Origin: a virus
Length of the DNA stretch: 24,313 nt
Virus record (IMG/VR): IMGVR_UViG_3300033156_000573
Span: 1-24,313 of that record
Direction: 5' to 3' (one strand)
Positions within the stretch are counted from its first letter, which is position 1. Each line of letters opens with the position of its first letter. Shown in pieces: positions 1,192 to 23,739 of the stretch. The position numbers were made by a program, and so were the translations under genes. A model generated the notes under the pieces. The model was not told where the DNA came from and made no database searches. It worked only from the letters and a program-made list of their open reading frames with translations.

Positions 1192-1567
1192 TTCGAATCC
1201 AGTAAGAAAATCGAGGAAATCTTCTCTCAAACCACCGTAACTCGGTCAAAGACAGCAAAACACTAAGTACTTCAGTAACAACAAGAAAAGGTATTACAAA
1301 TCCTTGAATTAAAAACATTCGAAGATTAAAGAAGTAATCAACTCCAACAGACGCCAATATAGTCATAGAATAAAATAACACCTTAAGCACAGTTTTCGAA
1401 AGCAAATAAACCTCAAACCTCCGAAATCTAATCGCCAGGGATACCCCTAGGACGAGATCAAGAGCTACTAAGCAAAATAAAATGATAACTTGAATAGAGC
1501 AAAACGGTGAAAGAAGTAAACCACTTCCAAAGGTAAAAAAACTCTTAAACATCATTTTAGACCTCAT
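1184..1567 (-). CDS. Holin-like membrane protein, 127 aa
   Basis: Small hydrophobic protein with about three membrane segments (near residues 23-45, 58-76 and 85-105) and a basic C-terminus. The pattern LDLVLGVSLAIRFRRFE, then a polar turn and a second hydrophobic stretch ending in GVDYFF, resembles the phage_holin_4 family (Cph1/TcdE type, consensus LDiitGxxkA). Members are usually 120-150 residues, so the length fits. Holins permeabilise the host inner membrane at lysis. The start overlaps the queE stop by 4 bases (ATGA), and ATGs 12 and 15 bases downstream are alternatives. It lies among replication genes with no endolysin in the window, so a non-lytic membrane role cannot be ruled out. 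The family call is from pattern only. Confidence 0.6.
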   Translation of the reverse strand: MRSKMMFKSFFTFGSGLLLSPFCSIQVIILFCLVALDLVLGVSLAIRFRRFEVYLLSKTVLKVLFYSMTILASVGVDYFFNLRMFLIQGFVIPFLVVTEVLSVLLSLTELRWFERRFPRFSYWIRNE

Positions 1568-2244
1568 CTTCCAGAAACTCCGTCAAACAAAACTAAATGT
1601 TCACGCGGGCCAAACCTGAACCCGAATTGCATACAAAACTCAAAACACTTTAATCCCCTCTTTATAAAGGTCTCACGAGAACGAGACTCGGGCATAACAT
1701 AAATGTCATTTGTAGATGTTATTCCCAATTGAGCCGCGTAACGAAAAACTTGTCGCGCAAAAGTAAAATCACCAACTGTTTCATCATACACAACTTTTAA
1801 AATTCTCTCAAAAGGCTTGAACGATGGAAGATCAAGAAAAGCGTCAGAATGTGGCTTAGGACTAACAGAAAAGAGAGTATCAAGCTTTGCCCAAGCAGAG
1901 GAAGGAGAAATCGTCCCATTGGTTTCGACATTTATCTTAGGAACCAATTCACGAGGTGCTTCCGTTAAGCACTTCAACAAATCCTCCTGCTGCCGCAATG
2001 GTTCTCCTCCTGTTATAACCAACAAAAGCGGATTTACACCCTTCAAATACTGTAAGAAATCCCCCTCAGTAAGATGCAAAGGGGAGGACTTCGTGGATAT
2101 TGCATAACTTGTATCGCACATCTTACAAGGTCCACAAGATAACTCAGATAAGTTACACCCTTGTAATCGAACAAAAAGCGCCGGTACACCAACAAAAGGC
2201 CCCTCTCCTTGAATACTCTCGAAAATCTCATTAACGTACAACAT
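1564..2244 (-). CDS. queE: 7-carboxy-7-deazaguanine synthase, 226 aa
   Basis: QueE is a radical-SAM enzyme that converts 6-carboxy-tetrahydropterin to 7-carboxy-7-deazaguanine (CDG), the third step of the preQ0 pathway. Visible features are the N-terminal NEIFESIQGEGPFVG typical of QueE, a cluster region with Cys30, Cys37, Cys40 and Cys43 followed by DTSY, and the radical-SAM GGEP motif at residues 79-82. The Cys spacing CX9CX2C (C30, C40, C43) differs from the classical CX3CX2C, but QueE is known for variable spacing; Cys37 is an extra candidate ligand. I chose ATG 2244 because a GGGAGGTGG site precedes it, it overlaps the upstream stop as TGATG, and the family N-terminus begins here. A start 17 codons earlier is less likely. 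With FolE2 and the DpdA-like protein in this window it points to deazaguanine modification of DNA. Confidence 0.92.
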   Translation of the reverse strand: MLYVNEIFESIQGEGPFVGVPALFVRLQGCNLSELSCGPCKMCDTSYAISTKSSPLHLTEGDFLQYLKGVNPLLLVITGGEPLRQQEDLLKCLTEAPRELVPKINVETNGTISPSSAWAKLDTLFSVSPKPHSDAFLDLPSFKPFERILKVVYDETVGDFTFARQVFRYAAQLGITSTNDIYVMPESRSRETFIKRGLKCFEFCMQFGFRFGPREHLVLFDGVSGR

Positions 2245-2675
2245 CAGATTCCACCTCCCATTACCGCTCGTGAGACGAAGTTTGAAAACTCGCACAAAAA
2301 ATATCCGTTTATAAACAAATAGGGCTGGATCCGCGTTTGAAGGTTGTCAAGCAGGGTTATAACGAATATATTACTCCCTTCCTTACGAGTTAAGATATAA
2401 AATGCGTCACCCCCGGCAAGTTGCTCGCACTCTTGGATGTACTCACGTAACTCAGGTGAGAACCCTTTCTTTAGCAACTGATTTAAAGAAATCTTTAAAT
2501 ATCGGCAAAATAACAATCCGGGACGAATTAAAGGTACTTCAAAATACTGATTATCCCCAAGTAGGTATCCCTTTAACGTGTAAAACTCACTCGCCTGTAC
2601 CTGTACTGGCCGGAGTATTTGAAGGACTCTCTTCTCCAGATATAACTGTCTGGTCTCCGACTTCGTTGGAATCAC
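2244..2675 (-). CDS. Hypothetical protein, 143 aa, overlapping the recA-like gene
   Basis: I do not recognise this protein. It starts at GTG 2675, inside the end of the recA-like gene, giving an 89-base out-of-frame overlap. The start is supported by a GGAGG site at 2683-2687, seven bases upstream. The first usable start after the recA stop (a TTG near 2516) lacks a good site and would remove a third of the protein. The sequence alternates beta-like stretches (YFEVPLIRPGLLFCRYLKI; FYILTRKEGSNIFVITLLD) with a charged helix, suggesting a small globular alpha/beta fold. No signal peptide or membrane segment is evident. Its stop overlaps the queE start (TGATG). Co-translation with recA and queE says only that it belongs to this operon. 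Confidence 0.7.
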   Translation of the reverse strand: MIPTKSETRQLYLEKRVLQILRPVQVQASEFYTLKGYLLGDNQYFEVPLIRPGLLFCRYLKISLNQLLKKGFSPELREYIQECEQLAGGDAFYILTRKEGSNIFVITLLDNLQTRIQPYLFINGYFLCEFSNFVSRAVMGGGI

Positions 2676-4659: not shown

Positions 4660-7491
4660 TCATTCCTCAAAAAGATGATCACCTCCTTTCCAAGAATCCC
4701 CAACCTCAATATCAACAGGGATTGCTAAGTCCGTATTGGCAACCGGTCTAGTATATAAAGACCGAATCAAATCAACCACTTCCTCCAAAATACTTTCATG
4801 AACTTCAACCATTATAGCATCATGAAGCTGTACTATCACCCTTGCATCCAAATCTTTCTCCTTAAAGGCCATCTGGAGCATCCAAAGAGTCTGATTCGTG
4901 TGATCTGCGACCGTACTATTATGAACGAGATATCCCTGACACACATAATAAGGATAGGAACCTTGTACAGTTAAATCGTACATTTCCACTTTTTGCCCGG
5001 TTGGTCTTACTTGAGTAACCTTAGAGAATCTAAATTTACTCTCCCCCACAAAAGGATGAGATCCGATAATTTTCCCCTTCTTTTTATCGGTCATCCTTAT
5101 TAACGGCGTTATCAAAAGCTCGCCCAATTGTAACTCATGTACAAACTTCTCACATACACTATCCCGTGTCAAAACACAAACGCGATGATCCTTACTTGCG
5201 CGTAAAGGGAGACCCTGATCGGTTATAACTTCGATCTTCTCTTTCCAAAGAGGTCCTTGTAACTTCGCAGTCGCAAAATTTTTGCCGTTGAAAACTTTAA
5301 CTCCGTCACATCTCTCAATGGGCATATAACCGTTTTCCGTTAAGACTAACGATCCCTTCTCAACGCACTGCGGTAAAAAGTTAAGAGCCTGTCTTTCCCA
5401 AACAGATAAAAACTCGCAATCTCGCGGAAAAATCCGCGTCCGTCCAAAGACATTCTGAAGAATGCGCTCTTTACGTGCGGTCGCAACAACCGAGTGTAGA
5501 AACGCAGGGATTTCGGGATACGCACTAAATAAGGAATCAATCACATTTTGCGCCTCTTCCAGAGGAAGTTTAAATTGTTCTGTCATACTTGCTGCGCCCC
5601 GACCATAACTTATGCCATAAACCGCAAACTTTGCGAGCTTCCGCTCAATATCCCCCTTTTTAACCTTCTTCTTAAAAATACGTTCCGCAGTCTGAATATG
5701 AAAATCCTTTCCTGAATTCAATTGATCCAACATATCTCGGCATCTAGCATACCATGCCAAGGCGTACAACTCGGCACTGTTTAAATCGGCCTCAATGAAC
5801 TTGTAACCCGCAGGCACGGTAAAAACAGATCTTACCGCAGACTTTGGAATTGTCTGAATAGGGGGATTTGTTGCACTAATCCTTCCAGTTACAGTCCCTG
5901 TAACTCTAAAATCGGGGTGAACTCTACCATCGGCCTCAACAAACCTCCAAATACCTCCCTTCCCCCCTGCTAAATAAGTTGAAAGAAGTTTTTGTCTCGA
6001 CCTTAGCTTTAACAAGGAGGTAATCGCTGCAATCTTAACAGGGTCAGACCCGGCCTTAGATTTTAATTTTTGAAGTGTCTCCTCATCCGAAGAGGCTGAG
6101 CCAGTCGGTGTCCTTTTAACAATAGGAAACTTCAAGTCCGTATATAAAGCTTTTGACAATTGCTTTGAGGACCTGTAATTGAATTCGTAGCCTGTAGCCT
6201 TAAAGAGAGTACGCTCGCAATCGCGAATCTCTGACACAACTTGTTTGGTTAAGGAGTCAACCTTTTCTTTATCAACCAAAACTCCAGTTAATTCAACATC
6301 AACAAATGCAAGCTGCGTCGGAAACTCAACTCCCCAATACAGGCGTTCAAAACCTTGAACCTTGATTTCCTCGATTTGCCTTAGGGCAATCATTCGCGTA
6401 ACAATGGCATCATGCGCCGCGTACTTAAACAGTATATCCCGAGGAATTTCCGCATAGGATTTTACACGTTGTTCCCTCTTAAACTTCTCTAGGGCCAAAT
6501 CGTACTTAGGGTAATCTAAGTACAGCGTAACTAATGTATTTAGATCGGCCGGTAGGTTTTCGTTCAGAATATGTTGCGCGACCATAGTATCAAAGTACAT
6601 GTTCGATACACAAAAACCGTTTCTTTTTAAGAAACTAAGATCGAACTTACAATTCTGTGCGACTTTACGACACTTGGAGCCGAGAATTCGCTTAATGTAA
6701 GGCGCAACAATCGGGTCGTCCATCGGAATTGTATAGCCGACCCAATCCTCGAAGGAAAGAGACAAACAAATTATAGACGCTCGAAACGGGTTGACATCGG
6801 TTGTCTCCAAGTCAAACGACATTACTGCATCTTCGGGAAGCGATTCAATGTGCTTTGTTAAATCCTCTAACGCCCCTAATGTATTTACCTGAAAAATCAG
6901 GGGTGAAGGCTCAGCGTAAGTCCCTTTAATAATCCTTTCAAGCTTTTCCATATCAGATTCAAACAGCCATTGTTGTTCCTGCTGGCGCATAATACTAGCC
7001 GGGTGAATCATTGGAAAAACAAATCCCCTGTCCGTACGCAGCAAGAAACCTCTTGCAGACATAACAGAGGTTATCTCTCCCCTCGTAACATACTCAAGGG
7101 CTTGCCCTCCAAACGTAACAATTAAATGAGGTGAAATCTGTCTTAACTCAGTATGCAAACGATCATAACAAAAAGTTTTCTTTACCTTTGGAACTGGTGT
7201 CAAAACTTCACATACACAAGCATTGGTTATGTACAAAAAGGAACCACGCGTTGCAAGAAAATTATGAAAGTGAGGGGGATCAATATCGAAAATGCGCACT
7301 AGGTATTTTGCGATCATCTCTCCCGATTTACCTACAAAGGGTCTTCCCTCAAAAAACTCGTTTGTACCGGGACTCTGACCTACAATACAAATCGACGCGT
7401 GAACATTTCCTTCAGGGGGAACAAATCGTAAAGTATTACGGTAAAGGGGACACGTTCGACAATACTCTAAAACATGTGTATGTAACACCAT
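4660..7491 (-). CDS. Uracil-DNA glycosylase / 3'-5' exonuclease / family A DNA polymerase fusion with mini-intein, 943 aa
   Basis: Replicative DNA polymerase in three parts. Residues 1-190 match UDG family 4: GQSPGTNEFFEGRPFVG (38-54), HPASIM (163-168), and Cys11, Cys14, Cys92 or Cys94, and Cys108 as probable 4Fe-4S ligands. Residues 223-375 are a DEDDy proofreading exonuclease: DLE (227-229), NCKFD (280-284), YAAHD (357-361). The rest is PolA: TGRISATNPPIQTIP, motif A EADLNSAEL (Asp569), motif B RKLAKFAVYGISYG (617-630) and motif C QLHDA (Asp891). There is no 5' nuclease domain. Tyr625 sits where E. coli Pol I has Phe762, as in T7 polymerase; Ala892 replaces Glu883. A 150-residue intein splits the palm after the Gln849-equivalent Gln708. 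After splicing the enzyme would be 793 residues. ATG 7491 follows an AGGAGGAGA site. Confidence 0.95.
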   Translation of the reverse strand: MVLHTHVLEYCRTCPLYRNTLRFVPPEGNVHASICIVGQSPGTNEFFEGRPFVGKSGEMIAKYLVRIFDIDPPHFHNFLATRGSFLYITNACVCEVLTPVPKVKKTFCYDRLHTELRQISPHLIVTFGGQALEYVTRGEITSVMSARGFLLRTDRGFVFPMIHPASIMRQQEQQWLFESDMEKLERIIKGTYAEPSPLIFQVNTLGALEDLTKHIESLPEDAVMSFDLETTDVNPFRASIICLSLSFEDWVGYTIPMDDPIVAPYIKRILGSKCRKVAQNCKFDLSFLKRNGFCVSNMYFDTMVAQHILNENLPADLNTLVTLYLDYPKYDLALEKFKREQRVKSYAEIPRDILFKYAAHDAIVTRMIALRQIEEIKVQGFERLYWGVEFPTQLAFVDVELTGVLVDKEKVDSLTKQVVSEIRDCERTLFKATGYEFNYRSSKQLSKALYTDLKFPIVKRTPTGSASSDEETLQKLKSKAGSDPVKIAAITSLLKLRSRQKLLSTYLAGGKGGIWRFVEADGRVHPDFRVTGTVTGRISATNPPIQTIPKSAVRSVFTVPAGYKFIEADLNSAELYALAWYARCRDMLDQLNSGKDFHIQTAERIFKKKVKKGDIERKLAKFAVYGISYGRGAASMTEQFKLPLEEAQNVIDSLFSAYPEIPAFLHSVVATARKERILQNVFGRTRIFPRDCEFLSVWERQALNFLPQCVEKGSLVLTENGYMPIERCDGVKVFNGKNFATAKLQGPLWKEKIEVITDQGLPLRASKDHRVCVLTRDSVCEKFVHELQLGELLITPLIRMTDKKKGKIIGSHPFVGESKFRFSKVTQVRPTGQKVEMYDLTVQGSYPYYVCQGYLVHNSTVADHTNQTLWMLQMAFKEKDLDARVIVQLHDAIMVEVHESILEEVVDLIRSLYTRPVANTDLAIPVDIEVGDSWKGGDHLFEE
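4918..5367 (-). other. Mini-intein in the DNA polymerase, 150 aa
   Basis: In-frame insertion at residues 709-858 of the polymerase precursor. It starts with Cys (CVEKGSLVLTENGYMPIE, block A). It carries LRASKDHRV as a block B-like motif, with Ser where Thr is usual and a conserved His. It ends with a block F region and the terminal His-Asn, followed by Ser as the +1 residue (GYLVHN then STVAD). The flanking residues join into a normal PolA sequence (LNFLPQ-STVAD, compare APMQGTAAD in E. coli). The length leaves no room for a LAGLIDADG or HNH endonuclease. The insertion lies beside an active-site Gln, so the unspliced protein should be inactive as a polymerase. Confidence 0.9.
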
Positions 7492-7500
7492 TCTCTCCTC

Positions 7501-7959
7501 CTATTTTCCTGTAGAACCCGTACCACCTCCCCGATTATACAAATTATCGGGAAGGGCGCTAACAGGAATTAACTCAACGCGTTCTATGGGAAGGATTAAC
7601 ATCTGGAGAACGCGTTCGCCAGGACATATAACTACGTCCTCGCCGGAAAGATTAGTCACAAATGGCTCAGCATTCCCTAAATACCCCGGGTCATAAACGG
7701 CAAGACACGTTAATCCCTTTCGACGCCATGAAGAGCGAGGGACGATTAAAGCGAAATACTTCTTCGGAAGCGCCATACGAAAACCACAATATACGCGTAC
7801 CGTATCATGTGGACGGATTAAGAATCCTCCGTGTGGCGTTTGTAAGGTCGGTGTAACGGAATGTACTACCAAATCAAAACCCGCCGAAAAACGTTCTCCT
7901 TTCCTAGGAACGTAAGACTCATCAAGAGCTTCAATTAAAATATCATCTGGAAAAAACAT
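7501..7959 (-). CDS. dut: dUTP diphosphatase (trimeric dUTPase), 152 aa
   Basis: Hydrolyses dUTP to dUMP and pyrophosphate, keeping uracil out of DNA and feeding dTMP synthesis. All five motifs are visible: AGFDL (26-30), PRSSWRRKGL (74-83), VYDPGYLGN with Asp90 (88-96), PGERVLQMLI (113-122), and the glycine-rich RGGGTGSTG arm (143-151). The length matches trimeric dUTPases. ATG 7959 is chosen because a GGGGAGGTGAG site lies just upstream, overlapping the folE2 stop; an earlier in-frame start would add 23 residues of overlapping sequence unlike the family. It lies directly upstream of the UDG-polymerase fusion, so two uracil-avoidance functions are made together. A dCTP deaminase/dUTPase is a remote alternative. 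Confidence 0.93.
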   Translation of the reverse strand: MFFPDDILIEALDESYVPRKGERFSAGFDLVVHSVTPTLQTPHGGFLIRPHDTVRVYCGFRMALPKKYFALIVPRSSWRRKGLTCLAVYDPGYLGNAEPFVTNLSGEDVVICPGERVLQMLILPIERVELIPVSALPDNLYNRGGGTGSTGK

Positions 7960-7963
7960 AATC

Positions 7964-8788
7964 TCACCTCCCCAAATAGTTAAATAGAGCAAAGTCAAAA
8001 TCCTCTGACCAAGCAAAGGCGACGGCATTATGAACGTGAATACTCTCGTAATGAGTTACTTTGACCAAATAGGGAAGACGCCATCTCTCAAGACCCGTAC
8101 CAATTAAACGAACCATATCTTCTACGAATACAGGATTCTTATAAGCTTGCTCGGTAACATACTTCTCATCAACTCTCTTCAAACACTCCCTTAACGGAGC
8201 ACTTGCCGCATTTTCAACTACTTCAACTAAATCTTCAAACAAAACTTCCTTACCCGGTACGGTTGCAACAGTTACACAAGCTAGAGATCTCTGATTATGA
8301 GCTCCAAAATCGGAGATCTCCTTACTACAAGGACATAAAGAGGTATAAGGAACCTCAATACTAACCAGGATATAATCGGGACGACCTTTCATTCTTATTC
8401 CGGTCACTTTAGTCTGGACGGGGAGCTTTTGCTTAATTCCACTTACCGGAGCGATCGTATCAAGCAAATACGTAAAAGTAACCTCAACCCGAGCATCCTC
8501 GCTCTCCAATCGCTTAACAACTTCATTCAAAGACACGGCCACATTCTCTGTCAAAAAGCGACGCGATTGGAAGCAATCGCTAACTACCTCATAAAACCGG
8601 GACATGTGAACTCCTTTTGTCTTTGAAGTCAAAGAGCAATAAACGTTAAAAGCTCCTACTGTTTGCATAAACTTGTCGGTCCGAGGGTAGTAAACAAATA
8701 TAGGATATATTACACCTTCAACACCTACCCAAGGTAAGTAAACCTGAGGAAATCCTTCACTTCGGGATTGAACATCAGGTACGTTCAT
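7964..8788 (-). CDS. folE2: GTP cyclohydrolase IB, 274 aa
   Basis: Converts GTP to 7,8-dihydroneopterin triphosphate, the first step of both folate and 7-deazaguanine (queuosine/preQ0) synthesis. It begins MNVPDVQSR as FolE2 proteins do, and has GVHMSRFYEV (59-68) and SLCPCSKEIS (150-159). Cys152 is the likely metal ligand, and GAHNQRS (162-168) follows. The length is typical. ATG 8788 overlaps the primase stop by 4 bases (ATGA) after an AAAGGAG site; an upstream in-frame start lies deep in the primase gene and is rejected. FolE2 is the metal-flexible isoenzyme often used when zinc is scarce, unlike the FolE of many deazaguanine phages. With QueE and the DpdA-like enzyme it most likely feeds DNA modification, though added thymidylate/folate supply is possible. 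Confidence 0.95.
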   Translation of the reverse strand: MNVPDVQSRSEGFPQVYLPWVGVEGVIYPIFVYYPRTDKFMQTVGAFNVYCSLTSKTKGVHMSRFYEVVSDCFQSRRFLTENVAVSLNEVVKRLESEDARVEVTFTYLLDTIAPVSGIKQKLPVQTKVTGIRMKGRPDYILVSIEVPYTSLCPCSKEISDFGAHNQRSLACVTVATVPGKEVLFEDLVEVVENAASAPLRECLKRVDEKYVTEQAYKNPVFVEDMVRLIGTGLERWRLPYLVKVTHYESIHVHNAVAFAWSEDFDFALFNYLGR

Positions 8789-9603
8789 CTTACACTCCTT
8801 TCTACGAATTCTTTTAAACTCATAAACTCGCCTGAAGAAACGCGCAAACAAGGTGTTTCCCATAAATGTTTCGTATCTGAGGGAGATCTATCCAAACAAA
8901 ACCCAGCATACGAATCTACAAAGTACGTCTGGTAAAGTTTAACCGCTGTCTCTAATGACGCCTCCCATGAATCATCATCCCAAAAAACTAAAATCTTATT
9001 TACGCCCCTCGCTGCAAGCTGACTAACAACAGCTTGTGTAACAAAATGTCCATATACACAAACAGCAAATCCCTCTAAACGATAATAATCAAAGATACCC
9101 TCAACGATAATTACAGAATCACCTACTAACTCGTTCAACCCAAGCAAACAACTACTCTTTCGAAACCCACTTTTGGTCAGGTACTTGGGTGCTCCCGGTA
9201 AATCGGAGAACAACCGTATCTGAAAGTTACCCTTATCGATAGGAATCACAAGACCATAACCATGAGTAAAAAACACCAACTTAACTTTCTGAAACCGTTC
9301 AAGAGCATGTTTACGCTCAAGTAACTCATAGACCTCAGGGAATTGAACTCGAACTTCCTCTAAATCATATTCAATAAACCTTCGGGGGTCCCAAGTTAAG
9401 GAAGATCCGTTTCCAGATCCTAAAAACCCCCTATACGGAGAAAGGGAATTTCGATCAAGCTCACTCGTTCTCCCTCTAGCATCACAGCGAAAACACAAAA
9501 ACTTTCCTATCGCCCAATTTACGTACAGCTTCCCTTTTAAATCAGGTGTCTTACCTCTCAATTTACAAAAAGGGCAATAATAACGTTCCCACTCACCTCT
9601 CAT
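8785..9603 (-). CDS. DnaG-type primase, zinc ribbon plus TOPRIM, 272 aa
   Basis: Compact primase that would make RNA primers for lagging-strand synthesis. Residues 10-40 form a zinc ribbon (CPFC, then CFRC: Cys10, Cys13, Cys37, Cys40). Residues 164-175 contain the TOPRIM motif VIIVEGIFD with Glu168 and Asp172, and DDD (209-211) is the second metal site. It is shorter than bacterial DnaG (about 600 residues) and lacks a helicase-binding C-terminal domain, which is common for phage primases. I chose ATG 9603, giving an 11-base overlap with the helicase gene; a longer form from 9693 would overlap by 100 bases and add a basic tail. It directly follows the DnaB-like helicase gene, as expected for a primosome pair, and its stop overlaps the folE2 start. 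Confidence 0.87.
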   Translation of the reverse strand: MRGEWERYYCPFCKLRGKTPDLKGKLYVNWAIGKFLCFRCDARGRTSELDRNSLSPYRGFLGSGNGSSLTWDPRRFIEYDLEEVRVQFPEVYELLERKHALERFQKVKLVFFTHGYGLVIPIDKGNFQIRLFSDLPGAPKYLTKSGFRKSSCLLGLNELVGDSVIIVEGIFDYYRLEGFAVCVYGHFVTQAVVSQLAARGVNKILVFWDDDSWEASLETAVKLYQTYFVDSYAGFCLDRSPSDTKHLWETPCLRVSSGEFMSLKEFVERSVR

Positions 9604-16794: not shown

Positions 16795-17559
16795 CTAAAT
16801 CTCAACTCCCTCTACTGAAAGGAATCTCTCAATCCACGCCATGCACTTACGTAAAACACTGCTCTCAAGTTCCGTCTCATAATCCATCGATCCATCATAT
16901 TTACCTGATAGAAAATACCTAAAGGGAAAAGACGAGTTAAAACTCCTTACAAAGGGAAGATGCAAGTAAAACGGGATCTCTACTTCAGGATTCACCAACC
17001 CTAAGATATGAATAGGCTTACTTCGTGAGAATTCCTCACAAATAAACGTAAGAACAGCAAAACGACCAAATAAAGACTTAAGATAGGAGGGGTAATCATC
17101 TAGTACCCTCACCACAGCAGAAGTAGCCATCTTTCCAATTCCCACGGTATCGATATAAGGATTCTCAACCATAGAAATCAAACACTGAAAATAATCCGAA
17201 GCGTTCTTTCCCTGAGGTACTCCCATGATCTTCGCGCCACTAAGAGACGGATTTCTTCTTACATCTTTAAGAAATCGAGTAGTCTCATCAAGCGTACGTT
17301 CTTTATCAAACAAAAAGGTGGGAGCGACAAGCTCGGCTACCTTTAGCCCCTTAACCAAAGAAGGGTCCAAAACCGAATCGCCCGTCTCTACAACCGAATT
17401 GTCTAATGTTAACCAATGTCCCTTCCTAGAAAGTTTCTTATAAAACCGTTTGTACTTCTTATTATCCCTAAGAAGACGGATGGGGACTAAATGGTGCGAC
17501 AAACCAAACTGGGTCAAAAACTCAAGGTGTGCCACCGGAGGATTTAACATCATCCACAT
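16795..17559 (-). CDS. dpdA: DpdA-like DNA transglycosylase (TGT superfamily), 254 aa
   Basis: Probable enzyme that exchanges guanine in DNA for a 7-deazaguanine base, related to tRNA-guanine transglycosylase. Motifs follow the TGT order: LDNSVVE (52-58, Asp53 in the place of the TGT DSGGFQ Asp), APTFLFD (79-85, Asp85), GVPQG (113-117, compare GIVQGG), VGIGK (139-143, compare GGLAVG) and HILGL (184-188). The zinc-binding Cys cluster of bacterial TGT is absent, and at 254 residues it is much shorter than TGT (about 375), as in compact phage DpdA-type proteins. Near residue 208, in SFNSSFP, Asn sits where I expect the nucleophilic Asp. GGAGG is 11 bases before ATG 17559. FolE2 and QueE elsewhere in the window support the assignment. 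Confidence 0.8.
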   Translation of the reverse strand: MWMMLNPPVAHLEFLTQFGLSHHLVPIRLLRDNKKYKRFYKKLSRKGHWLTLDNSVVETGDSVLDPSLVKGLKVAELVAPTFLFDKERTLDETTRFLKDVRRNPSLSGAKIMGVPQGKNASDYFQCLISMVENPYIDTVGIGKMATSAVVRVLDDYPSYLKSLFGRFAVLTFICEEFSRSKPIHILGLVNPEVEIPFYLHLPFVRSFNSSFPFRYFLSGKYDGSMDYETELESSVLRKCMAWIERFLSVEGVEI

Positions 17560-18085: not shown

Positions 18086-19129
18086 TTACACTAATCTGCT
18101 CATATACTTCTTAACTACGGGATCATCAAAATTGATCATTCCATCCCATTGGGTGTTCAAAAACACCTTCTTCGCCCGTTTGTGTCCAAGTTCTGAAGCT
18201 ACTTGATGATAGATATCATATGGGCGAATTTTCTCCTTAACGATTCTTTTTGAGAATTCGGGCATCTGTCTTCTTAACCGACTCGCAATAGTACGCCGCG
18301 CTTTCTTTGTTATGGACGTTTCAACCCACTCAGCTCCCATACGAGCCCACATATAAGTGCCTTCAACAATATTCGCTCGAAACATAACCTTTTTACGTCC
18401 GGAAGCCTTTGAAAGATCCATCAATGTCCTTAAAACTACAACACCAGAAACAGCGTTTTTCTTTTTGTTCCTAATGAGATTGATCTCGAGCAAATCTTTT
18501 GCGGCTGCGGAGATGGAGCCGACAAACTCGGACTGCTTGACTCCTTTTATGGAGCCCGAAACTGTAAAGCCGTTGAATAGCATGTACTCAGGATCAGGTT
18601 TAATCCCTTTAGGAAGGCCGTAATACGCGATAGAAGGATTCTCGAGCTTATTCGCCATCTTTATCGCAGATATTGCTGTCCTTGGGTGGCCTAGGGCATA
18701 GAGCAGTCCTCTTCTAGCTGTATAAACCTCCATATCAGCACCCGTTTTAAACACAAGTGATTTTGCGAGAGCACGTCCCCCAGGTGTAGATATCAAAACA
18801 GCCGTCATAATAGCAGGCACCGCAAGCGAAATTGATCCGTACTTCGCGGCTTTGTTAAGTGTGATGAAAACGGGTTTACCGCGAATGGTTACCCAAAAAC
18901 CTTTTCTGCCCTTTTTATCCGTTACAATTTTTACTTTACGAGAGACTTCAATCTCATCGACTTTAAAGGAAGGAAGAGCTTCACTCCTCTTAGAAGGACG
19001 CTGATCAACATCGTCAATGATTTTCTCGACGGGTTCCCAAATCAAGGAATCAGAACCATCTGCATCTACTGGTGAAGCTTTCCGCCCGAGAGGCTTAGGT
19101 AAAGTTTTGAAAATTACGACTTTAGACAT
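18086..19129 (-). CDS. Hypothetical protein, 347 aa, possible virion- or polyvalent-type domain
   Basis: I do not recognise it with confidence. An N-terminal disordered, charged region (1-65) is followed by KGRKGFWVTIRGKPVFI (about 73-89). This resembles a short beta motif often seen in phage head-associated or large polyvalent proteins (WVTIxGxxVFI). A hydrophobic stretch follows (about 97-118, SISLAVPAIMTAVLI) that could be a membrane or buried helix. A later segment, VEGTYMWARMGAEW, recalls another motif seen in such phage proteins. The C-terminal 100 residues are basic. ATG 19129 follows AAGGAGGTAC and overlaps the upstream stop by 8 bases. Its place among replication genes is odd if it is structural; a protein ejected with DNA is one option. 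Confidence 0.7.
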   Translation of the reverse strand: MSKVVIFKTLPKPLGRKASPVDADGSDSLIWEPVEKIIDDVDQRPSKRSEALPSFKVDEIEVSRKVKIVTDKKGRKGFWVTIRGKPVFITLNKAAKYGSISLAVPAIMTAVLISTPGGRALAKSLVFKTGADMEVYTARRGLLYALGHPRTAISAIKMANKLENPSIAYYGLPKGIKPDPEYMLFNGFTVSGSIKGVKQSEFVGSISAAAKDLLEINLIRNKKKNAVSGVVVLRTLMDLSKASGRKKVMFRANIVEGTYMWARMGAEWVETSITKKARRTIASRLRRQMPEFSKRIVKEKIRPYDIYHQVASELGHKRAKKVFLNTQWDGMINFDDPVVKKYMSRLV

Positions 19130-19757
19130 TTGTACCTCCTTGAGAGGAAATCAGCCCTAAATGCTTCTTTACTTCTATCATCATCTCAGAAAAAGACGAG
19201 ACAGTCAAGTAGTCCTCTGGGGAGCACTGTCCCAAAGGTGTGCTCGGGCACGAATCCCTCTCAGAACATAAGAGGCAAACGAATCCACTAACAACTTTAT
19301 CTAGAACCCAACACTCAGCTACAGGGAGAGTAACCTCTTTCTTAAGAAAGAAGGAGAAAACACCTAAGTAAAAAGCTTTATCAATCAACTCAAGTTCGGA
19401 CGGTTTCCGCTGCTGTCGATACTTTGTAACGTCAAAAGGACGTAAGGGCCAAAAACACACATCCCCAAAAGTGGAGACTACAATGTTTCTTATCTTACCA
19501 CTAAGTCCTCTCTTGGTAGCTGTCCAAGCTAAATGACGAAGTGCAGAAGCTTCAATTTGACGAACGCGTTCCCGAGTTATTCCTAAGATTTCAGAAAGGC
19601 GCTCTAACTTATGCTCGCCTTTATTAGCAATTCGAATCGTGCAATTTCCATACTCGGGGATAGTCTTTTCCCAGTAACAACAGTTCGTCTTATTACAGGT
19701 AAAGGGTAAGGAGAAGCATGGAAACTTCACCTCAAAGTTCGGAAAATAAAGTTCCAT
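19122..19757 (-). CDS. Sigma region 4-like regulator with Cys clusters, 211 aa
   Basis: Residues about 51-76 (LSEILGITRERVRQIEASAL) match the helix-turn-helix of sigma-70 region 4, which contacts the -35 box. No region 2 is present, so it is not a complete sigma factor. The N-terminus is Cys-rich (Cys14, 21, 26, 27, 39), a likely metal site. A second cluster, Cys149, Cys161, Cys164 and Cys170 (C-x11-C-x2-C-x5-C), closely resembles one in the next upstream gene. ATG 19757 is supported by AAGGAG six bases upstream; a GTG one codon earlier is possible. It may act as a transcription regulator or appropriation factor that redirects host polymerase; this is inferred from the domain. Confidence 0.8.
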   Translation of the reverse strand: MELYFPNFEVKFPCFSLPFTCNKTNCCYWEKTIPEYGNCTIRIANKGEHKLERLSEILGITRERVRQIEASALRHLAWTATKRGLSGKIRNIVVSTFGDVCFWPLRPFDVTKYRQQRKPSELELIDKAFYLGVFSFFLKKEVTLPVAECWVLDKVVSGFVCLLCSERDSCPSTPLGQCSPEDYLTVSSFSEMMIEVKKHLGLISSQGGTNV

Positions 19758-19861
19758 CACCTTCTCCTTACCTGAATCTCCCCGTCTCTAAAAACGATTT
19801 CAAAGGAATAACCCCTCAACCGCCTATTTGTGGTAAGAGTCTTTAAAAACTGTTCAATCAG
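19757..19861 (-). CDS. Candidate 34-aa small ORF bridging two regulator genes
   Basis: The 100-base gap between the two Cys-module genes is open in one frame from 19861 to a TGA at 19757-19759 that overlaps the sigma-like ATG as TGATG. The peptide would end GYSFEIVFRDGEIQVRRR, a plausible beta-hairpin. The only starts are CTG 19861 or ATT 19858, both weak and without a Shine-Dalgarno site, so it may be chance. The gap holds nothing else I can name. Confidence 0.2.
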   Translation of the reverse strand: MIEQFLKTLTTNRRLRGYSFEIVFRDGEIQVRRR

Positions 19862-20416: not shown

Positions 20417-22975
20417 CTAACAAGTTGAGTAACCACATTTTGAACAACTCTTACATCCTTGTCCGTTACGAACCAAGGAATAATTTTGGCATTTTGGACA
20501 CAAATCAAAGAGATCTTCGGGTTTAATATTCGTGTTAGTTTTCACAACGTCTTGTAATACCTTGGCAACGGCGTCGCAGATTGAAGTAACTCTGCCTACT
20601 CGTTTATTAACGTAATAATCACCTGTTTCAATACCCGAAAGAGACTTCATTATTACCTCTGGCTTTGTTCCAGAGCGAAGAGCCAGAGAAACCAAACGAC
20701 CTAACCCCATCGCAAGGCCGTTAACTACGTTACCACTCTTTCCAGTAGATACAAAAACTTCTATCGGCTTACCCCTCAACGACCTGTTAATTGTTATGTA
20801 GATATTATTTAAGCCCTTAAACTTGTAAGTCTGACCCGATAAAACGTCTTCCTCCCTCTTCTCATCTTCATTGTCTATCTCCACAATAGAATCTAGAACA
20901 CATCCTCTACGGTACACTGTTAAGCCCTTAAGACGATATCTCTGAGCTGTGAAGATAATCTCCTCGACTTCTTCAACGGACGTTTCTTTAGGCACATTAA
21001 TAGTTTTACTTGCCGACGTATGACTAATCTGTTGAACTGCAGAAACAACCTCAATTTGCTTCTCAGGGGGAATGAACGGAAGAGGGGGTGGATCAGAAGG
21101 GGTTACCTGTGATTTTAATATAACTGTCTGGAATTCGCCGTCGCTGTTAAGAAACTGCCTCTTTACTTGAAAAGCTTCAAGGGGCTCCAAACCTGTTGAA
21201 ATACACCTTAAAAATTGAGAAACTGAACCGGCTGGCGCCTGCGTTATTGTGGTTGTGTTCCAAAACTTCTTACTCCTCTTTGTGTACCCAATTAAAGATA
21301 GATGCTCTTTCTTATATTCTGAATCCCATTTCTTCTCCGTCCTTGTTGCTAAGGCCCACTCGTTAGAAGCAATAAGAGAGCCTCGTGTAAGAGCCGAATA
21401 AACCTCCATAATTCTATCTGTATCCGTATACTCATATCCCTTCTTAAAGAGATATTCGGCAACACCTGTTAATCCAACACCAACAGGGTGAATTTGCTCA
21501 ATACGTTCACGTAATTTACGATAAAGCCACTCCGGCTCCCGAGGAAGCCCTTGATCGTACTCTAAAGTAAGATAGAGAATGGCGTTACCAATATGTGTCA
21601 TATAGTACCCGAGCGCCTCAAAGTCACCTACACTATCTGCCGAAATAGCATTCCCTGTTAAGAGGTGACAAACACTAAAAGGAGGAGACGTGTACTCTCC
21701 ACAATTAGCAGTCAAAATACCGTTGTAGAAAACCTTATGTGTCTCGGGTTCTGTAATATTATAAACATCATATCGCTTACCTTGCTTCTCAACCTTTTCG
21801 ACGCGGCAGAAAGGCGGGCTCATTCGTCCGTGAGCTCGAGTACTGCGAATTAACGCCTCGGGAATCAAGCAATCTGAGGTGTTTAGCTCAGAAGCCTTCC
21901 TTTTCACTAAAGGAACCTTACCCAAATTTATCTGCCCTTCCTTCGTCCACGTTTTACATATTATACCATAATTATATTCAGAGGTTACATAAAACGAGTG
22001 GTCTGGAGTTACTTTAAGTTCACGCCCGTTAGATAACCTAACTAATACCACCTCCACGTTTTCGCGAGTCTTCCAAACTCGTGTGGGAATAGTGTAATTC
22101 CCGTTACCGTTCAAAACCCTGATCTTCTCTCCCCTTTGAAATCTTTCGGCCAGTTCGGCGATAGGGATCTCTCCAAGTTCTGTAGCAACTTTTGTATCGC
22201 CAGTAACACAAGGATTTACATATCGAACATGGGGCTTTAACTCAGGAGGATAAGGAGAATGATCAGCAATAACGTCGGGAAAGAGTAAACCAGGGTCGCC
22301 AGATGTCCACATTCCCAATGCAATCTCCTTGATTAATTCGCGCTGTTCCCAAAAATCCCCAAAAGCGTTTACTGAAATATTTATAGACCATAAGTCACGT
22401 CGCTCTCTCTTAAGTCGAACATACTTAAAGATATCGGGATGATTGTAATCAAGCTGGCCCAACATAGCGCCTCGCCTTTTCCCACCAGCAGCAATGCTCT
22501 TAGAAGTAGCCTCAAACATAGGAATAAATCCCACAGGTCCTGAACTAACACCTTGGGATTGATCAACGCCGCTTCCCTCTGGACGAAGAGTGGAAAAGTC
22601 AAGCCCCACACCACCGGCATACTGAAAAATACTTGCGCACGCCTCAACATACCTGAGAATGTCTTTCGTGGAATCAGGAATAGGACCTAAGGGAAAGCAC
22701 GAGTAAAATCCGCATCTTCGTGTATACGGATTTCCAAGATTCATCAACACCGGAGTTGCAAAGGTAAATTCTCTATTTTTAGCTCTACGTAAAGCCTCGA
22801 AAAGAATGTCTTTTGACACAGGATACTTTTGTTTGAGTATGAAATCGGAAACGCGCTCGATGACATCCTCATACGTTTTCTCCAATCTCTCAGAAGTCTT
22901 AGGGTGACGAATTGAGTAACGTTGGTAAATAAGGGCACGCTCAAAATCTGCCCAGCCGTTTATGACTTCTCCCAT
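20417..22975 (-). CDS. nrdJ: Adenosylcobalamin-dependent (class II) ribonucleotide reductase with mini-intein, 852 aa
   Basis: Reduces ribonucleotides to deoxyribonucleotides using B12, without needing oxygen. The N-terminal barrel has RRCGFYSCFP (Cys93 probably one of the redox pair), GGVGLDFSTLRPEGS and a GPVGF region. The radical site NPCGE is split by an intein (Pro255, then Cys425-Gly-Glu after it), and Cys436 is the likely disulfide partner. APAGSVSQ is the phosphate-binding loop. A C-terminal TSCPD-like domain (IEVFVSTGKSGNVVNGLAMG) is followed by a zinc-ribbon tail with Cys826, 829, 841, 844, 847 and 852, as in bacterial NrdJ. After splicing it would be 683 residues. GGGAGG lies 10 bases before ATG 22975. 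It supplies dNTPs to the phage polymerase. Confidence 0.95.
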   Translation of the reverse strand: MGEVINGWADFERALIYQRYSIRHPKTSERLEKTYEDVIERVSDFILKQKYPVSKDILFEALRRAKNREFTFATPVLMNLGNPYTRRCGFYSCFPLGPIPDSTKDILRYVEACASIFQYAGGVGLDFSTLRPEGSGVDQSQGVSSGPVGFIPMFEATSKSIAAGGKRRGAMLGQLDYNHPDIFKYVRLKRERRDLWSINISVNAFGDFWEQRELIKEIALGMWTSGDPGLLFPDVIADHSPYPPELKPHVRYVNPCVTGDTKVATELGEIPIAELAERFQRGEKIRVLNGNGNYTIPTRVWKTRENVEVVLVRLSNGRELKVTPDHSFYVTSEYNYGIICKTWTKEGQINLGKVPLVKRKASELNTSDCLIPEALIRSTRAHGRMSPPFCRVEKVEKQGKRYDVYNITEPETHKVFYNGILTANCGEYTSPPFSVCHLLTGNAISADSVGDFEALGYYMTHIGNAILYLTLEYDQGLPREPEWLYRKLRERIEQIHPVGVGLTGVAEYLFKKGYEYTDTDRIMEVYSALTRGSLIASNEWALATRTEKKWDSEYKKEHLSLIGYTKRSKKFWNTTTITQAPAGSVSQFLRCISTGLEPLEAFQVKRQFLNSDGEFQTVILKSQVTPSDPPPLPFIPPEKQIEVVSAVQQISHTSASKTINVPKETSVEEVEEIIFTAQRYRLKGLTVYRRGCVLDSIVEIDNEDEKREEDVLSGQTYKFKGLNNIYITINRSLRGKPIEVFVSTGKSGNVVNGLAMGLGRLVSLALRSGTKPEVIMKSLSGIETGDYYVNKRVGRVTSICDAVAKVLQDVVKTNTNIKPEDLFDLCPKCQNYSLVRNGQGCKSCSKCGYSTC
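21704..22210 (-). other. Mini-intein in the ribonucleotide reductase, 169 aa
   Basis: In-frame insertion at residues 256-424. It begins CVTGDTKVATELGEIPIAEL (block A), has LKVTPDHSF (block B with Thr and His), and ends NGILTAN before +1 Cys425. Removing it restores YVNP-CGEY, the conserved reductase radical-cysteine motif. The penultimate residue is Ala instead of the usual His, a variant seen in some inteins. There is no endonuclease domain. The +1 splicing nucleophile is the catalytic thiyl Cys itself, so unspliced protein should be inactive. Confidence 0.9.
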
Positions 22976-23065: not shown

Positions 23066-23674
23066 CTAAATTCTTACAAAATATCGATGATGTGAAGTTT
23101 TTCCAAATTCAGAAAGAGCTTGACGATGTCTCTTAGATAAGAAACCGAGGTTCATCTCCAAATCGTACAAGCGCCAATCAGGGTTCTCTCGAAGAAGTGT
23201 CAATATCTCATTTTTACGTCGCTCCCTAGAAATGAATGCTGCAAGTTTTAAAGTATAAACGTACCGATCCCCTCTTATAACGGGGAAACAATCGTCAAGA
23301 TGATCCGGTACAAGGTAATCGGTAACAACAACCGCGTGGGGATACTCTCTCTTCATCTCCTTTATCAAAGATAGCTTCGACCTTCTAATTACTTCATCAA
23401 CATTCCCAAACTTATTAATTTCAATACAAGAAACAACATCAACCACGTGGGGAATACTCCCTGAATCAAATTTATCATTCAACAAAACTAAAGAATGATG
23501 AACATCAATGGGGACTCCACAAGTTACCAAAGGACCAAAGGCTGCTTCCTTACCATCAGTAAACAAACCAATGACACATTTATATCCTACAGAAAAGAAT
23601 AACCTCTCCAGGGAAAAAGTCTCCAACCCCTGAATTAACTCTTCGTGAACTCGTGCGATTCTCTTAAAATTCAT
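23066..23674 (-). CDS. Divergent RNase HII-like protein, 202 aa
   Basis: The motif order resembles RNase HII/HIII, which cleave RNA in RNA-DNA hybrids: TDGKEAAFGPLVTCGV (39-54, compare DEAGRGPLAGPVVAAAV), VVVTD with Asp119, IRGD (133-136), LAAFISRERRK (144-154), NPDWRLY (164-170) and NLGFLSKRH followed by SHHRYF (176-199). The C-terminal match to GYGT-x2-H and HR-x-SF is best. However, the first catalytic pair is Asp-Gly instead of Asp-Glu, the GRG junction-recognition motif is missing, and the later Asp appears as Asn155, so activity is doubtful. It could be an inactive nucleic-acid-binding relative. The ATG at 23674 lacks a clear ribosome binding site; TTG 23710 is an alternative. No database check was possible. 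Confidence 0.6.
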   Translation of the reverse strand: MNFKRIARVHEELIQGLETFSLERLFFSVGYKCVIGLFTDGKEAAFGPLVTCGVPIDVHHSLVLLNDKFDSGSIPHVVDVVSCIEINKFGNVDEVIRRSKLSLIKEMKREYPHAVVVTDYLVPDHLDDCFPVIRGDRYVYTLKLAAFISRERRKNEILTLLRENPDWRLYDLEMNLGFLSKRHRQALSEFGKTSHHRYFVRI

Positions 23675-23739
23675 GATATCAGTTTTAACGAAAGCTCGGA
23701 GAAAAGGCAAGCAGGAAAATTCAGATTTCCCTAATTTTT

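Follow-up and report, generated by a model that had tools for sequence, protein, structure and literature searches.

Phage polymerases in which a uracil-DNA glycosylase (UDG) domain precedes a proofreading exonuclease and a PolA domain are already known (SPO1 gp31, phiLo gp158), and the architecture is not unusual among phages. Bacillus phage SPO1 gp31 has an N-terminal domain of the UDG superfamily, followed by exonuclease and PolA; this UDG domain has neither the Fe-S cysteines nor the pocket Asn, the gene contains an intron, and the genome encodes a dUMP hydroxymethylase. The polymerase of Thermus phage phiLo (gp158) carries the three domains in one chain of 1175 aa, retains the Fe-S cysteines and the catalytic His, has the motif 1 sequence GEAPG and gives no Pfam intein match; its structure, PDB 9qhs, matches phiLo residues 34–1175 at full length. 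Archaeal family B polymerases have a uracil read-ahead pocket, in which recognition is tied to the polymerase. The closest free-standing enzymes are the family 4 UDGs (UDGa), here represented by Tth UDGa (PDB 1ui0), and UdgX, which is defined by D56, D59 and a loop with R107/H109 (PMC10776899). In the PDB, UdgX goes under the entry name "Phage SPO1 DNA polymerase-related protein". The literature library searched contained no functional study of a UDG–PolA fusion.

Here we analyzed a metagenomic, partial virus record from IMG/VR, 24,313 bases long, taken whole and called the window. Like SPO1 and phiLo, it encodes UDG N-terminal to exonuclease and PolA in one open reading frame (ORF) without a 5' nuclease, but the element within its gene is an intein where that of SPO1 is an intron, and its UDG domain is only 22–26% identical to that of phiLo. 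The archaeal enzymes belong to an unrelated polymerase family and fold, and uracil sensing by the window polymerase is putative. What is new is that a divergent lineage has an altered motif 1 and carries an intein whose site is empty in a relative.

Polymerase gene, intein and neighborhood

The polymerase and the adjacent dUTPase are laid out as follows:

7501–7959, minus strand: dUTPase (the called ORF begins at 8028, but the internal ATG at 7959 is the likely start; Pfam dUTPase, E 1.9e-15)
4660–7491, minus strand: UDG–exonuclease–PolA polymerase gene with intein (943-aa precursor, ATG start)
6922–7491, minus strand: family-4-type UDG domain, residues 1–190 (Pfam, PDB matches, AlphaFold2)
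6388–6876, minus strand: 3'–5' proofreading exonuclease, residues 206–368, with D227, E229, D284 and D361 (Pfam and alignment)
5368–6351, minus strand: N-terminal part of the PolA domain, residues 381–708 (Pfam and alignment with relatives)
4918–5367, minus strand: mini-intein, residues 709–858 (150 aa), from Cys1 to His-Asn, then +1 Ser (Pfam Intein_splicing, E 5e-9, and relatives)
4663–4917, minus strand: C-terminal part of the PolA domain with motif C LHDA, residues 859–943 (alignment with relatives)

Pfam matched UDG at residues 25–184 of the 943-aa ORF (E 6e-19), DNA_pol_A_exo1 at 206–368 (E 9e-20) and DNA_pol_A at 409–707 and in a second piece (E 1e-66), the last being split by the Intein_splicing match; no 5' nuclease family was found by Pfam in this ORF, nor any in the related record L003. 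The four DEDD residues of the exonuclease fall in invariant or near-invariant columns of the polymerase alignment and the palm aspartates are present as D569 and D891, as in family A DNA polymerases with proofreading. A model of the intein-free polymerase of a relative, L005 (pLDDT 89.3, pTM 0.85), matched Klenow-type polymerases over the exonuclease and polymerase parts. The preliminary description, made from the sequence, had placed a UDG domain ahead of a proofreading domain and PolA at 4660–7491, with no 5' nuclease and with a dUTPase gene adjacent, and all of this was borne out. Its further statement that the PolA is replicative is supported as probable: PolA was the only DNA polymerase found in three longer related records, where searches for PolB and PolIII alpha came back empty, and this supports a replicative role, though short of proof. 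The gene product is thus likely the phage's replicative family A polymerase.

The 150-aa insertion has Cys1, the block B His, the C-terminal His-Asn and a nucleophilic +1 residue expected of an intein, and its site is empty in L005 (IMGVR_UViG_3300021509_000085), where NFLPQ is followed without interruption by STVADHTN. In L002 the intein is 247 aa long (residues 709–955), 97 aa longer than in the window, and its internal insert contains no recognized endonuclease domain. By Pfam, an intein was present in 2 of the 33 members of the polymerase alignment, both from the window lineage. Splicing would leave a mature window polymerase of about 793 aa. This intein had been overlooked in the preliminary description. 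The B12-dependent ribonucleotide reductase gene of the window (20417–22975, minus strand) also bears a mini-intein (residues 256–424, 169 aa, nt 21704–22210), distantly similar to that of the polymerase (24.5% identity, E 2e-7).

The dUTPase lies directly upstream of the polymerase on the same strand, and the 9-nt gap before the polymerase ATG holds a strong ribosome-binding site, GGAGGAGAG. The Pfam profile is matched to its end (129/129) and the protein has the tail RGGGTGSTGK, a C-terminal motif of the GGxGSTG type, in agreement with a trimeric dUTPase; the same neighbor is found in L002, L005 and L027, and the two genes are probably co-transcribed. Genes for FolE2, primase, a DnaB-like helicase, a gp32-like SSB, RecA and SbcCD-like proteins are also near the polymerase. 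The close relatives, too, all come from metagenomes as incomplete records, and L002, L003, L004, L006 and L027, having near-identical polymerases, were counted as one lineage member. The name AUK014 of the metagenome-assembled genome (MAG) containing L027 hints at the Auka vent sediment study (PMC9213671), the MAG itself being absent from the main text. Since the same continuous fused ORF, flanked by the same neighbors, recurs in separately sampled contigs (L002, L004, L005) and in the MAG contig L027, and the same domain order is found in phage isolates, we regard a misassembled or frameshifted UDG/polA junction as a negligible explanation of the fusion.

Other genes of the window are recorded here as side observations. 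A QueE-like gene (1564–2295, minus strand) and FolE2 (7964–8863, minus strand) suggest 7-deazaguanine modification of DNA or tRNA, and Brevundimonas phage MaInes likewise has QueC/D/E-type genes beside its UDG–PolA gene. A gene at 16795–17559 that by eye looked DpdA-like was supported by no profile library. The window further encodes a weakly RNase HII-like protein (23066–23710, minus strand), scoring under curated cut-offs, and a small protein matching sigma-70 region 4 (19122–19760, minus strand), possibly a phage transcription factor. Neither ThyA nor ThyX was found in the related records, which are partial.

Fold and active site of the UDG domain

Alignment with Tth UDGa located the following elements, from the N terminus:

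7450–7461, minus strand: first Fe-S cysteine pair, C11 and C14
7354–7380, minus strand: motif 1 GQSPGTNEF, residues 38–46 (Q39/S40 replace E41/G42; E45 matches E47)
7210–7233, minus strand: motif 3 YITNACVC, residues 87–94 (uracil-binding N90, Fe-S C94; V93 replaces K83; Asn89 loop missing)
7168–7170, minus strand: fourth Fe-S cysteine, C108
6985–7005, minus strand: motif 2 HPASIMR, residues 163–169, with the catalytic H163

Among PDB sequences, the domain matched 1l9g, 1vk2 and 1ui0 at E of about 1e-16, and also UdgX. The preliminary description had proposed prediction of the N-terminal fold as a check, and the AlphaFold2 model of residues 1–198 (pLDDT 86.5, pTM 0.86) returned a family-4-type UDG fold with the pocket residues present: its nearest folds were 1ui1, 1ui0, 1l9g and 1vk2 (TM 0.73–0.76), and the phiLo structure 9qhs ("phiLo family-A DNA polymerase with modified template") was also among the matches. 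The predicted fold is thus of the family-4 UDG type, and from the residues retained we expect it to hold a [4Fe-4S] cluster and to bind uracil in its pocket.

The agreement with family 4 is incomplete. The four cysteines (C11, C14, C94 and C108) are present and probably bind the cluster; the uracil-binding Asn80, the thymine-excluding Glu47, the stacking Phe54 and the catalytic His155 of Tth UDGa are kept as N90, E45, F52 and H163. On the other hand, motif 1 reads GQSPGTNEF against the consensus GE(G/A)PGxxED, Lys83 is replaced by Val, and motif 3 has lost its RPPxN segment, which holds the water-positioning Asn89. The probable Fe-S cysteines and the HPAS motif named in the preliminary description thus align with those of Tth UDGa, with the amendment that the active site is not fully canonical. 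Scores also stayed under the curated NCBIfam cut-offs: the domain reached 70.5 bits on TIGR00758, where 125.3 are required, and 76.5 on Arch_udg, where 250 are. The window domain is fused whereas UDGa is free-standing. UdgX shares the overall fold and the motif positions, but the window has T43 and F46 in place of D56 and D59 and lacks the extended loop of motif 3 that bears R107/H109; UdgX-type cross-linking was rejected on these residues.

Published kinetics of Tth UDGa on G/U substrates cover mutants related to these changes: k2/Km was 2.4e5 for the wild type, 2.7e2 for E41Q, 4.5e4 for E41Q-G42D, 3.5e4 for N89A and 94 for H155S (PMC5387724). The 888-fold loss caused by E41Q was thus eased to 5-fold in E41Q-G42D, N89A cost about 7-fold, and E41Q also lost measurable binding of uracil-containing DNA (PMC5387724). 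With QS in motif 1 and without the Asn89 loop, the window lineage probably excises uracil weakly, slowly or not at all.

Fused and free UDG domains compared

A search for the same fusion in other phages, likewise suggested earlier, found it in SPO1 gp31 and the phiLo polymerase, and 75 fused sequences besides the window were collected. From phage records and IMG/VR we compared 76 fused domains (the window and 75 further) with 25 free ones; as the seeds were partly fused and the scan patterns favor canonical PFxG or NxxxCRPP stretches, counts in this set are not prevalences. A scan seeded with the Brevundimonas phage polymerase gave no matches. UDG, exonuclease and PolA were all recognized by Pfam in each of the 33 members of the polymerase alignment. 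The motif 1 doublet was EA in 64 of the 76 fused domains, and the equivalents of H155, E47 and N80 were present in 76, 74 and 71, respectively, and each cysteine in 70–73; in most fused phages, then, the active site plausibly retains the capacity for excision. QS was confined to the window lineage (3 of 76 fused domains) and absent from the 25 free domains. On the UDG tree, the labels fused and free required 5 changes, compared with 23 in shuffles, and the window lineage sits on a long branch (3.33 changes per column) whose deep placement is unsure.

Five fused domains, from SPO1-type and Serratia/Yersinia phages (L007, L011, L019, L020 and L022), have lost the pocket Asn. Beyond the window lineage, many fused polymerases have thymidylate synthase or a related gene no more than a few kilobases away. 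We draw no link between loss of this Asn and dUMP hydroxymethylase or thymidylate synthase neighbors: all five losers have such genes, but so do many keepers. One 137-kb record, G005 (IMGVR_UViG_3300017593_000402), contains a second, different UDG–PolA gene (787 aa; L118) at 103–107 kb; with a local G+C of 35% against 43% elsewhere and different neighbors, it was not accepted as a paralogue, and the record is probably chimeric.

Within the window lineage, the four cysteines, N90, E45, F52 and H163 are invariant at 77–78% domain identity. Between L002 and L005, the UDG domain had a dN/dS (Nei–Gojobori) of 0.075, compared with 0.056 in the linker and exonuclease and 0.046 in PolA residues 381–708, values from this one pair, dS between the window and either relative being saturated. 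The UDG domain is under purifying selection and is not a decaying relic. The alternative of a structural relic raised in the preliminary description is accordingly not favored, given the retention of pocket and Fe-S residues and a dN/dS near that of the polymerase and exonuclease. Such constraint alone fits uracil recognition and a purely structural or docking role equally; that the base-contacting side chains are kept, the motif 1 doublet excepted, favors recognition.

Role of the UDG domain

We consider it slightly better than an even bet that the domain serves uracil surveillance from its place on the replicative polymerase, with excision weakened in the window lineage. In favor of this reading stand the domain order and predicted fold, the cysteines and pocket residues retained, purifying selection on the domain, the adjoining dUTPase, the thymidylate synthase or related genes close to many fused polymerases elsewhere, and PolA as the one DNA polymerase found in related records. 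The preliminary description held that the polymerase could stall at or excise template uracil; either may occur, though the changed motif 1 and the lost Asn89 loop argue for weak excision in this lineage. The intein would have to splice out for activity, after which the 793-aa polymerase would work beside a dUTPase that keeps dUTP out of the pool, and the UDG domain would complement the latter by letting the polymerase recognize uracil in DNA being copied or just copied; in the window lineage, binding and pausing or slow removal would be likelier than efficient cutting. The low family-4 scores, the long branch and the loss of binding in Tth UDGa E41Q (PMC5387724) speak against this reading, as does a selection signal that a structural or protein-docking role would explain as well. 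The related records, themselves partial, yielded no AP endonuclease, and without one the phage's own enzymes would have more difficulty repairing an excision in the template. Our estimate includes the case of a pure read-ahead sensor, in which the domain has changed from an excising enzyme into one that holds on to uracil in the template, leaves it uncut and makes the polymerase stall. Fusion to the polymerase and a retained pocket in an altered catalytic context fit such a sensor, but because E41Q cost Tth UDGa its DNA binding and most of its activity (PMC5387724), a binding-only role is not assured, and taken by itself the sensor is quite improbable.

Two readings lie outside surveillance with weakened excision. 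That the UDG fold only stabilizes the polymerase or docks another protein, for instance SSB or helicase, seems rather unlikely to us: the SPO1-type domains L019 and L020 persist without the Fe-S cysteines and pocket Asn, showing that a UDG domain can endure without a working site, but in the window lineage these very residues, together with E45, F52 and H163, do not vary. A fully active glycosylase, removing uracil during or just after replication with QS compensated elsewhere in the pocket, is in our judgment unlikely. The residues touching the base in Tth UDGa are kept apart from E41/G42, doublets other than EG can work, as QD brings E41Q within 5-fold of the wild type (PMC5387724), and most fused relatives have the canonical EA; against this, QS is peculiar to the window lineage, the Asn89 loop and Lys83 are gone as well, and the missing AP endonuclease counts here too. 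Surveillance with weakened excision is the reading we retain.

The collected set offers a ready comparison of fused domains with an intact site, the QS lineage and SPO1-type domains that lack the cysteines or the pocket Asn, and L005 provides a natural intein-free version that could be expressed. Were uracil recognition and synthesis coupled, these polymerases would lend themselves to uracil-aware amplification and would represent a second answer to the problem that archaeal polymerases solve. Should the sensor reading be true, family A polymerases would sense uracil by means of a glycosylase fold.
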